Of a stretch of 64,000 nt of DNA, positions 46,785-50,037 are shown in pieces (position 1 is the stretch's first letter; each line of letters begins with the position of its first letter). A model generated the notes under the pieces. That model saw nothing but the letters and a program-made list of their open reading frames with translations. It was not told the origin of the DNA and did not search any database. Position numbers and translations under genes: made by a program. The stretch is from assembly GCA_000611775.1 (NCBI GenBank), contig KK106981.1, positions 10,133,183 through 10,197,182 of the forward strand. Direction: 5' to 3'. The DNA is from Umbilicaria muhlenbergii (taxonomy: Eukaryota; Ascomycota; Lecanoromycetes; Umbilicariales; Umbilicariaceae).

Positions 46785-47566
46785 ATGGATCAAGCAAAGC
46801 TAGCGAAGATGCAGCAATCAGTGCGCATTGGTGAGTTCCCCCTACCTCCCATGTCTTCAATCTAGCTTCTGATACCGGGCATGCGGTGGCTAACCTCATC
46901 TTCTGCGCTTAGGGTAAGTCTAACTCTCCAATCCTCACTGCCAGAGCTGCCGAGCCTTGTATCCTACAAACCGGTCTTCCGATGCCGGGCCAACAGCCTG
47001 CTAGGACTATACGAGGAAGTTTACGCTGATATGTGACCAACCTCAGAGGCAAGGGCACGCCGCGAAGAAAGATGAAGAAAGTGCACAAGAGCTCCGGCAC
47101 CGACGACAAGAAGCTCCAAACCGCCCTCAAGAAGCTAAACGTGCAACCCATCCAAGCGATTGAAGAAGTCAACATGTTCAAAGAAGACGGCAACGTCATC
47201 CACTTCGCCGCTCCCAAAGGTATACATCATCGTTCCCCAATTCCCCATTCCCCATCCCCCCCATCACAACCACCCATACCGTCCAACACGCTTACACGAA
47301 CTCACAACCCCACAGTCCACGCCTCCGTCCCCTCCAACACCTTCGCCATCTACGGCAACGGCGAAGATAAAGAACTCACCGAGCTCGTCCCGGGCATCCT
47401 CAACCAACTGGGCCCGGACTCGCTCGCCTCGCTGCGCAAATTGGCCGAGAGCTACCAGAGCATGCAGAAGAAGGAAGGCGAAGACGGGGACAAGAAGGCG
47501 GATGACGACGACGACGATATCCCGGACTTGGTGGCGGGGGACAACTTCGAGAGCAAGGTCGAGTGA
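46785..47566 (+). CDS. egd1: Nascent polypeptide-associated complex subunit beta (NAC-beta, BTF3)
   Basis: Exons 46785-46830, 46913 (one base), 47047-47219 and 47316-47566 give 156 residues. The N-terminus [15 protein letters not shown] leads into the ribosome-binding motif [18 protein letters not shown]; the NAC domain follows ([60 protein letters not shown]), and the tail ends in [21 protein letters not shown] shields nascent chains at the ribosome exit and controls SRP targeting. Reading GGA at the Gly-Gly position needs the single G at 46913, which sits between a full acceptor (CTTAG) and a full donor (GTAAGT). Joining exon 1 directly to 47047 breaks the frame; using the next AG (47049 on) keeps frame but drops one Gly. 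Confidence 0.93.
46913..46913 (+). other. egd1: Putative one-nucleotide exon of egd1
   Basis: The sequence CTAACCTCATCTTCTGCGCTTAG-G-GTAAGTC places one G between a branch/acceptor and a donor, each near consensus. Exon 1 ends with one base of a Gly codon and the next exon starts with A, so this G completes GGA and the conserved Gly-Gly-Lys. Confidence 0.65.
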
Positions 47567-47978: not shown

Positions 47979-50037
47979 TCAACCGTGATAATTTCCCAAG
48001 CGGAAAATGGTGACGCCTTCACTAAGCCCCACAAACTTCCACCTCACACTGCGCCTTTTCCATCCTCCCCATCCTCCCCATCCTCCCATTCCCATTCCCA
48101 CCCGACCTGGCCTTGTCGCCCCTCCCCCTCCCCACCACCCCATCCCCCCTCCCTCTCCCCGCATGGGCATGTGATATGATTCTGGCGTGTGTTTGTTGTC
48201 GTTGGTTGGGACGTGTGGTATTAGTATGGTATGGTGGGGATTGGGCGGGTGTAGATGGATGTGTATAAGAGACAGCCTCTCCACCCACTCCACCCCCTCC
48301 AGTCCCAACTCCCTCCTCCTCTCCCCCCCCACCATCCACGCCTGGAAAACCCCCTGCGCATCCTCCACCCCCCTCAACTCCTGCACCCAATTCTTGACAT
48401 ACGCCCCCTGCGGATCATAGTCAAACGCCTGCTTGACCGGGTTGAAGACGCGGGCTTCGCCCCTGGGGTCGTTGCCCACGCCCGCCGTGTACTGCCAGTT
48501 GCCCCAGTTGCTGCTGACGTCGTAGTCGGCGAGGAGGGACTCGTACCACTCGGCGCCGACGCGCCAGTCGATGCCGAGGTGCTTGGAGAGGAAGGAGGCG
48601 ACGTTTTGGCGCGCCCGGTTGGAGGTGTAGCCCGTGAGGAAGAGTTCGCGCATGGAGGCGTCGATGAGCCCCGTGCCCGTCGTGCCGGAGAGGAAGCGGG
48701 CCACGACTTGCTGCGTGTCTTTCCCCTCCGCGCTGCCGCCGTGCGGGCATTTCCACGCGTAGCTGCTGTCGTTGCGGAACCCCGAGATGCGGAACAACCG
48801 CGGGCCAAACTTGCGCGTGCACAGACGCATGTAGTCGCGCCACAGCAATTCGAAGCGCACGGCGGCGGTGCCGATGTTTTCGCCCTGCGCGTAGCCCGGC
48901 GCGGTGCTGCCGAGCGGGGTGGTGCCGTTTTCGAAGTGGAGGAGGTATTCGTGGGTTTGGCGGGCGGTGATGCAGCCGAGGGCGAGCCAGGCGGAGAGTT
49001 TGGTGCTGAAGTCGAGGCCGAGGAGGCCGTTGCGCGTGTCTTTGTAGGTCGACATGCTGCCGGATGTGATGAGGTGTCGTAGGCGTTCGTGGCCGGTGGT
49101 TTCGCCGCCGTGGAAGGGGTGCGCGGATTTGGCGTTTGTGGGCCATTTGGGTGGGTGCGCGAGGCCGAGGTTGGGATCTAGTGGCTTGACGAGTTTGGCG
49201 ATGATGTCGTCTAGGGTGTTTGGAATTGTAAATGGCGCCGGTTGAGGTGGGATCGATGGCGGAAGGGGTGGGAGTTCTTGTGGCACGGGTAAGGTAGGGC
49301 GGGGTGCCTCGCGGAGAGGTTCGACCTGTTTGCGATATGTAGTGAAAACGTCGGGTGTCTCGCGTGGATGGTCAAAAGGCACATCACGACTGTTGAGATG
49401 TCAGTATGAAGCTGCGAAGAGAAAGCCCCCTTAAGGGGATGGGGCTCCTTCGTTTGAAAAGGTGGTGTTTCCGGGAATGAGCTGGCCCCTTCCCAAGTGA
49501 AAAGGGGGTGTGCACATACTCATCAATATAGTACTTTTCGTCAACCCATAACTTGAACTCCTTCCCATCGGCCTCCACGGCCTTTCGCACATCACGCTCT
49601 TCCCTCTTCTCCTCCACGCCTTCCTCCGCGGTCATCCACACGCCGAAGACCTCACTGTCTGTGCGTCTAAAGGCCTCCAGCATGTCTTTGACCACTTGGC
49701 CAAGCATACCAACCCGGATCTCAAGTCCACTGTCAACACTCTCGAGTGACTTTTTCAGATCCCAGACACTCTCGGCCACAAAGCGTGCACGATGTGGGCC
49801 ACATCTCCAGAAGCCACCAGCCTGCGAGCGGGCCTCTGGGTACGGAGATCGGTCCGAATCCGACGAGAGAAAGCCAGAGACCTCGATCTGTTGCGCCGGA
49901 AAACAATAGACGGGAAGAACGTGAGTATACGGACGTGACGACTGCTGACAGGACTTGGAGATCTCGTGCAATATCGGGTTGTCCGCGAGGCGGAGGTCCC
50001 GGCGAAGGAGGTAGATGAGAACGCGCGGCGGAGACAT
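47979..50037 (-). CDS. Cryptochrome DASH
   Basis: Two exons (49520-50037, 47979-49389) with a 130-nt intron; nominal length 642. N-terminal photolyase fold: PPRVLIYLLRRDLRLADNPI, HVLPVYCFP and FGVWMTAEEGVEEK. The FAD-binding half shows FHGGETTGHERL, STKLSAWLALGCITARQTHE, ELLWRDYMRL, REL(F)LTGYTSNRARQNVASF, and the DASH hallmark YDVSSNWGNWQYTAGVGNDP. Cry-DASH proteins bind FAD and MTHF, repair UV lesions in single-stranded DNA and may sense blue/UV-A light. Everything up to WVER (about 48276) is sound. Downstream the frame runs through a Nextera adapter (LSLIHI) into a Gly/Trp/Arg-rich tail, so the last ~95 residues and the stop should not be trusted. Confidence 0.93.
48258..48275. other. Nextera/Tn5 mosaic-end adapter sequence in the assembly
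   Basis: The 18 bases GATGTGTATAAGAGACAG match the Tn5 mosaic end used in Nextera libraries exactly (the full 19-mer has A before this; here it is G). On the minus strand it reads LSLIHI and on the plus strand VYKRQ, both well-known translation marks of this adapter. Confidence 0.95.

Follow-up and report, generated by a model that had tools for sequence, protein, structure and literature searches.

The window, a stretch of 64,000 nucleotides from the Umbilicaria muhlenbergii genome (34.8 Mb, 7 contigs), carries the gene egd1 at positions 46785-47566 of the plus strand. This gene encodes NAC-beta (EGD1/BTF3): its product matches the NAC domain profile PF01849 with 84.9 bits, compared with a cut-off of 21.3, and its best relatives of solved structure are BTF3 entries (E 3.6e-48), which we take to be mammalian, the listing giving molecule names without species. 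When the genome was searched with the protein, this gene alone was returned, meaning that egd1 is single copy. As expected for a eukaryotic gene, no confirmed relative of the protein was found among the bacterial/archaeal and viral contigs. The features of the locus are as follows.

46785 to 46830, plus strand: exon 1 (46 nt), coding for 15 residues and the first base of a Gly codon; it aligns to BTF3, MNQEKLAKLQAQVRIG.
46831 to 46912, plus strand: intron 1 (82 nt), GTGAGT...CTTAG, donor 5.65 nats, acceptor with branch site 5.72 nats.
46890 to 46894, plus strand: branch site CTAAC of intron 1, its A46893 lying 19 nt before the intron end.
46913 to 46913, plus strand: probable one-nucleotide exon G, the middle base of the Gly codon G-G-A.
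46914 to 47046, plus strand: intron 2 (133 nt), GTAAGT...CTCAG, donor 7.67 nats, acceptor 4.76 nats.
47026 to 47030, plus strand: branch site CTGAT of intron 2, with A47029.
47047 to 47219, plus strand: exon 3, A-GGC-AAG-GGC..., encoding RRKMKK and the beginning of the NAC domain.
47047 to 47048, plus strand: competing weak acceptor AG (GAG), 2.30 nats, which skips the one-base exon in frame and drops one Gly.
47220 to 47315, plus strand: intron 3 (96 nt), with the weak donor GTATAC and PKV-HASVP continuity with BTF3 across it.
47316 to 47566, plus strand: exon 4 with the stop TGA.

The preliminary description of this DNA had proposed the one-base exon, and the bases it cited are all in place: ATT-G ends at 46830, GTGAGT starts at 46831, CTAAC has its A at 46893, CTTAG ends at 46912 and is followed by G46913, GTAAGTC runs from 46914, CTCAG ends at 47046 and A-GGC-AAG-GGC begins at 47047. 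The three joinings also behaved as it had claimed. When G46913 was included, splicing gave a protein of 156 aa containing IGGKGT (ATT-GGA-GGC-AAG, that is Ile-Gly-Gly-Lys); when exon 1 was joined straight to the CAG acceptor at 47046, the frame was shifted and the product ended at 24 residues; and when it was joined to the AG at 47048, a protein of 155 aa with IGKGT was obtained. Retention of intron 2 led to a stop after 16 residues and retention of intron 1 to a stop after 26, so that the mis-spliced forms examined end early, the GAG form excepted. The sequences across the junction are given here.

G46913 included: ATTGGAGGC
GAG route: ATTGGCAAG
One-base exon skipped: ATTGAGGC

Intron 3 is a case of its own, since its length is a multiple of three, it contains no in-frame stop and its donor GTATAC stands at the 12th percentile. 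Its retention would add 32 residues within the NAC domain, giving a 188-aa read-through form, and is a possible alternative isoform.

We then compared the two in-frame proteins with BTF3. The 156-aa form aligns over residues 1-150 and is free of gaps over residues 1-120. The segment VRIGGKGT is present in BTF3 too, and a gap-free match of egd1 to it needs the one-base exon; the 155-aa form scored 158.9 bits as compared with 166.7 with the Gly (a loss of 7.8), the gap falling exactly at the missing Gly. Both the reading frame and the conserved protein motif thus depend on G46913. The preliminary description had called GGKGT invariant, a statement set here against BTF3 only, presumably mammalian. 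Its assignment of ribosome binding to GGKGT had to be corrected: the motif tested for it is RRK-(X)n-KK, located after GGKGT and given for yeast NAC-beta as RRK-(X)2-KK (PMC4664479). RRKMKK in exon 3 fits this motif with a spacer of one residue and is thus a putative ribosome-binding site.

The same comparison bears on the reading in which a single intron of 218 nt starts at 46831 and ends with the GAG acceptor (47048), the protein reads Ile-Gly-Lys-Gly with one Gly lost and AG-G-GT is a coincidence. Such an intron keeps the frame in one step and is the second of five in-frame solutions, but it removes a residue that BTF3 has, and GAG is a poor acceptor (2.3 nats, 13th percentile) lying 2 nt behind the better CAG. 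The chance of the AG-G-GT coincidence that it requires is about 2-5 in 100,000. We regard this reading as very improbable.

To weigh the splice sites we used a simple gene model that knows nothing of NAC and whose starting values were a generic fungal consensus. Its training set, 264 kb in all, consisted of the window plus 20 further 10-kb stretches on three contigs of this genome; there it yielded, outside egd1, 61 predicted genes and 90 predicted introns with a median of about 58 nt; the percentiles below therefore refer to predicted rather than transcript-proven introns. The two donors, GTAAGT at 46914 (7.67 nats) and GTGAGT at 46831 (5.65 nats), stood at the 98th and the 69th percentile, respectively. 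Scored with its branch site CTAAC, the acceptor at 46912 (5.72 nats) reached the 72nd percentile, compared with a below-average 30th for the acceptor at 47046 (4.76 nats) and the 13th for the GAG acceptor at 47048 (2.30 nats); G precedes the AG in about 2% of the predicted introns, pseudocounts included. A complete acceptor thus lies directly before, and a complete donor directly after, a single base (CTAAC..CTTAG-G-GTAAGT), and both inner sites exceed their outer competitors (donor 7.67 vs 5.65, acceptor 5.72 vs 4.76). Since the inner sites are the stronger ones, skipping should be prevented and inclusion favoured.

The model picked the one-base exon with its generic starting parameters and again in all four training rounds, from which the egd1 splice sites were left out while the coding model included egd1 itself. 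It did so once more after the splice and coding parameters had been re-estimated on 41 genes and 55 introns from beyond the window, an estimate that is not fully independent since the window had been seen by the model that predicted these genes and was also part of the background base model. The predicted internal exons number 45, and all but this one measure at least 26 nt. When either inner site was forbidden, the model dropped exons 1 and 2 and started at the ATG at 47072, losing the first 24 residues, which illustrates a pitfall for annotation; a protein begun at this downstream ATG would lack RRK, one part of the motif for ribosome binding.

With intron 3 spliced out in each case, explicit structures scored 43.1 nats when they contained the one-base exon, 38.3 when they took the GAG route and -29.1 when frameshifted, and with outside-window parameters the one-base exon led the GAG route by 4.3 nats. 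On scores alone this margin is moderate, and the model, which does not call intron 3 of egd1, is an imperfect judge of this gene. Five in-frame solutions were found among structures that used donors at 46800-46870, inner donors of positive score and an acceptor at 47046 or 47048, with no more than one additional exon and with introns of at least 42 nt. The one-base exon was the best of them by 5 nats and the sole one with Gly-Gly. A single intron would have to be 216 or 218 nt long, and only 1 of the 90 predicted introns is of 216 nt or more. BTF3 homology, splice-site strength and the in-frame comparison thus all uphold the one-base exon put forward in the preliminary description.

We also looked at how often such a site occurs by chance. 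With 13.38 nats, the acceptor-1nt-donor site of egd1 is the highest among 528,000 positions (264 kb, both strands), the next reaching 9.3. In 20,000 dinucleotide shuffles of 46840-47020, an AG-G-GT at legal spacing arose in 2,178 and a score of at least 10 nats in 27, and the egd1 score with G was reached in 1/20,000. Genome-wide, the pattern CTAAC-N(6-30)-YAG-N-GTRAGT is found at 15 places on both strands; a model gene lies over 5 of them, and a one-base exon is called at 1, egd1. With CTGAC, CTAAT and CTGAT in place of CTAAC the counts are 16, 11 and 33, so that the four spellings give 75 listings, in which at least three sites are listed twice and repeats are possibly under-counted. G followed by GTAAGT appears in 10 of the 75, egd1 included; as a 216-nt intron offers about 130 legal positions, the chance of a G-GTAAGT site is about 2 in 100,000.

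When the pattern was read backwards as a control, the counts (pattern/control) were 15/68 for CTAAC, 16/40 for CTGAC, 11/36 for CTAAT and 33/21 for CTGAT. For the first three spellings the reversed pattern outnumbers the juxtaposition 2.5- to 4.5-fold, for CTGAT it does not, and given this mixed direction we infer neither avoidance nor excess. The genome-wide number of zero-length sites is 9, as compared with 20 in the reversed control. Some of the listed sites appear to lie in repeats. An apparent array of tandem repeats, with units some 82 nt long and a recurring CTAAC...CACAGGGTAAGT, occupies G000:C2:6056814-6057099 (L011, L012, L013), which the gene model interprets as exons of 21 nt separated by introns some 61 nt long. 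Four near-identical sites of the form CTAATCAGGCAATA...CATAGGGTAAGT (G000:C1:6498638, C1:8463874, C3:1965604 and C7:1549920) seem to be copies of one dispersed repeat, in which an acceptor and a donor stand one base apart. For egd1, an origin from a duplicated intron or an introner finds no support: the local similarity between introns 1 and 2 is weak, being equalled or exceeded in 191 of 2000 shuffle pairs, and the 216-nt stretch matches only itself genome-wide.

An error of sequencing or assembly would offer another way out, if a base were missing at the exon border of a gene with one ordinary intron. The assembly is indeed not free of flaws, with adapter-like remnants and runs of N in some stretches. 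However, an indel within a few bases of the border would have to coincide with a strong acceptor-G-donor (1/20,000 shuffles), a single intron of this length would be in the tail of the distribution (1/90), and the type of adapter suggests a short-read mate-pair library. One-base indels are rare in such libraries. This explanation is, in our judgement, most improbable. As to the remnants themselves, exact 18-nt matches to what we take to be the Nextera mosaic-end adapter occur 12 times genome-wide and 0 times in a reversed-pattern control. One copy is at 48258-48275 of the window, 0.7 kb past the egd1 stop and within the span of a predicted minus-strand gene (47979-50037); others include G000:C1:5477968 and 5478099 (L042), and one at L042 follows an inverted near-copy, like a mate-pair junction adapter. 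These matches are probable adapter contamination and possibly mark misjoins in the assembly.

The anatomy of the one-base exon, its frame, the strength of its sites, their rarity and the homology are direct observations. Taken together with them, we consider it highly likely that the egd1 mRNA contains G46913 as a constitutive one-nucleotide exon and that the two flanking introns are removed one after the other. By intron definition, the spliceosome would remove two ordinary short introns of 82 and 133 nt. With the acceptor of intron 1 and the donor of intron 2 one base apart, the two complexes would not be seated together: the consensus of the intron 2 donor extends back over the end of intron 1, which means that the sites are presumably not co-occupied and splicing should be sequential. 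A like argument for sequential splicing has been made for APC11 (PMC4674806). Either order of removal would lead to ATT-GGA-GGC-AAG and thus to Ile-Gly-Gly-Lys.

The preliminary description had also suggested the two-step removal of one long intron. The overlapping sites make sequential splicing likely, whereas a strict zero-length site with AG directly before GT is absent, one base being kept. Since the same mRNA is predicted, the sequence does not separate two-step removal from the one-base exon. Recursive splicing proper, or a stwintron, would go further and make the whole stretch a complex intron with an obligate order of removal, while remaining compatible with the mRNA of the preferred explanation. 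The overlapping sites would force sequential splicing, and removal of intron 1 creates the donor TGG/GTAAGT, which at 6.41 nats is stronger than donor 1 (5.65), so that a recursive-like second step is possible; many stwintrons have moreover been reported in Hypoxylaceae. Yet both egd1 introns have their own complete donor, branch site and acceptor, so either order works, and the retained base between AG and GT means that there is no zero-length exon. We therefore hold an obligate complex intron to be rather unlikely.

The GAG acceptor puts the skipped form in frame, which would allow two isoforms in quantity, one with Gly-Gly by inclusion and one with a single Gly by skipping, the difference lying in the loop that precedes the ribosome-binding motif. 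GAG is weak, however, and no sign of regulation was seen here, making substantial amounts of both forms unlikely. It is slightly more doubtful still that the one-base exon acts as a control point, at which obligate two-step splicing and the choice between inclusion and skipping would determine how much NAC-beta, or which kind of it, is on ribosomes.

Altogether, these data indicate that the egd1 exon is very probably one base long and that it keeps both the frame and a conserved glycine. One-base exons are real, rarely described and easily missed by annotation. No report of one in egd1/NAC-beta was found in the open-licence literature, which was the scope of our search; a text search of stwintron papers for micro-exon or 1 nt gave no use in the sense of a one-base exon. 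If transcripts confirm it, egd1 would add a further nuclear one-base exon and, according to the literature surveyed, the second in fungal nuclear genes.

We finally compared egd1 with known systems described in the papers cited. The one-base A exon of Arabidopsis APC11 was proven by constructs (Guo and Liu 2015, PMC4674806). Like that of egd1, it is a constitutive one-base exon between two spliceosomal introns and is required for the frame; unlike it, APC11 is a plant gene with construct proof and its base is A instead of G. One-base exons of VPS55 and APC11 occur across land plants (PMC8831610). The VPS55 microexon resembles that of egd1 in the strong donor GTRAGT behind it, which is conserved in VPS55 (PMC8831610), and differs in being a plant exon that is alternative in some lineages and conserved over land plants (PMC8831610). 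In mitochondria, one-base exons are reported in placozoan cox1 (PMC5436844) and in fungal rnl of Ophiostoma and Ceratocystis (PMC12308204); these too lie between two introns, which unlike those of egd1 are of group I or group II and not spliceosomal, and rnl is not protein-coding. Ascomycete stwintrons, in which an internal intron interrupts a splice element of an external one, share with egd1 two consecutive excisions at one place, whereas in egd1 each intron has its full set of splice elements and a coding base remains between them.

The Fusarium CYP621A one-nucleotide exon has read support in two species (Nelson and Syed 2026, PMC12940212) and was found in at least 20 orthologues (PMC12940212). 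Its authors present it as the second one-nucleotide exon overall and the first in a fungal gene (PMC12940212); the VPS55 and mitochondrial cases show that one-base exons beyond this tally had already been described. They propose that a base was lost at an exon border and that a cryptic AGGGT in the intron rescued the gene (PMC12940212). The egd1 exon could have arisen by such a loss with cryptic rescue, or when a new intron was gained at a distance of one base from an older one. As in CYP621A, the gene is fungal and nuclear, and the base, the G of AG-G-GT, forms the centre of a Gly codon within a conserved motif and is required by the frame. Unlike CYP621A, egd1 is a core single-copy gene, another gene in another lineage, and its exon is predicted here from the sequence. 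It is a core translation gene common to fungi and mammals and more widely conserved than CYP621A, which its authors call rarely expressed (PMC12940212). As a core gene, egd1 is in contrast likely to be well expressed, and the order in which its introns are removed should therefore be easily measurable.
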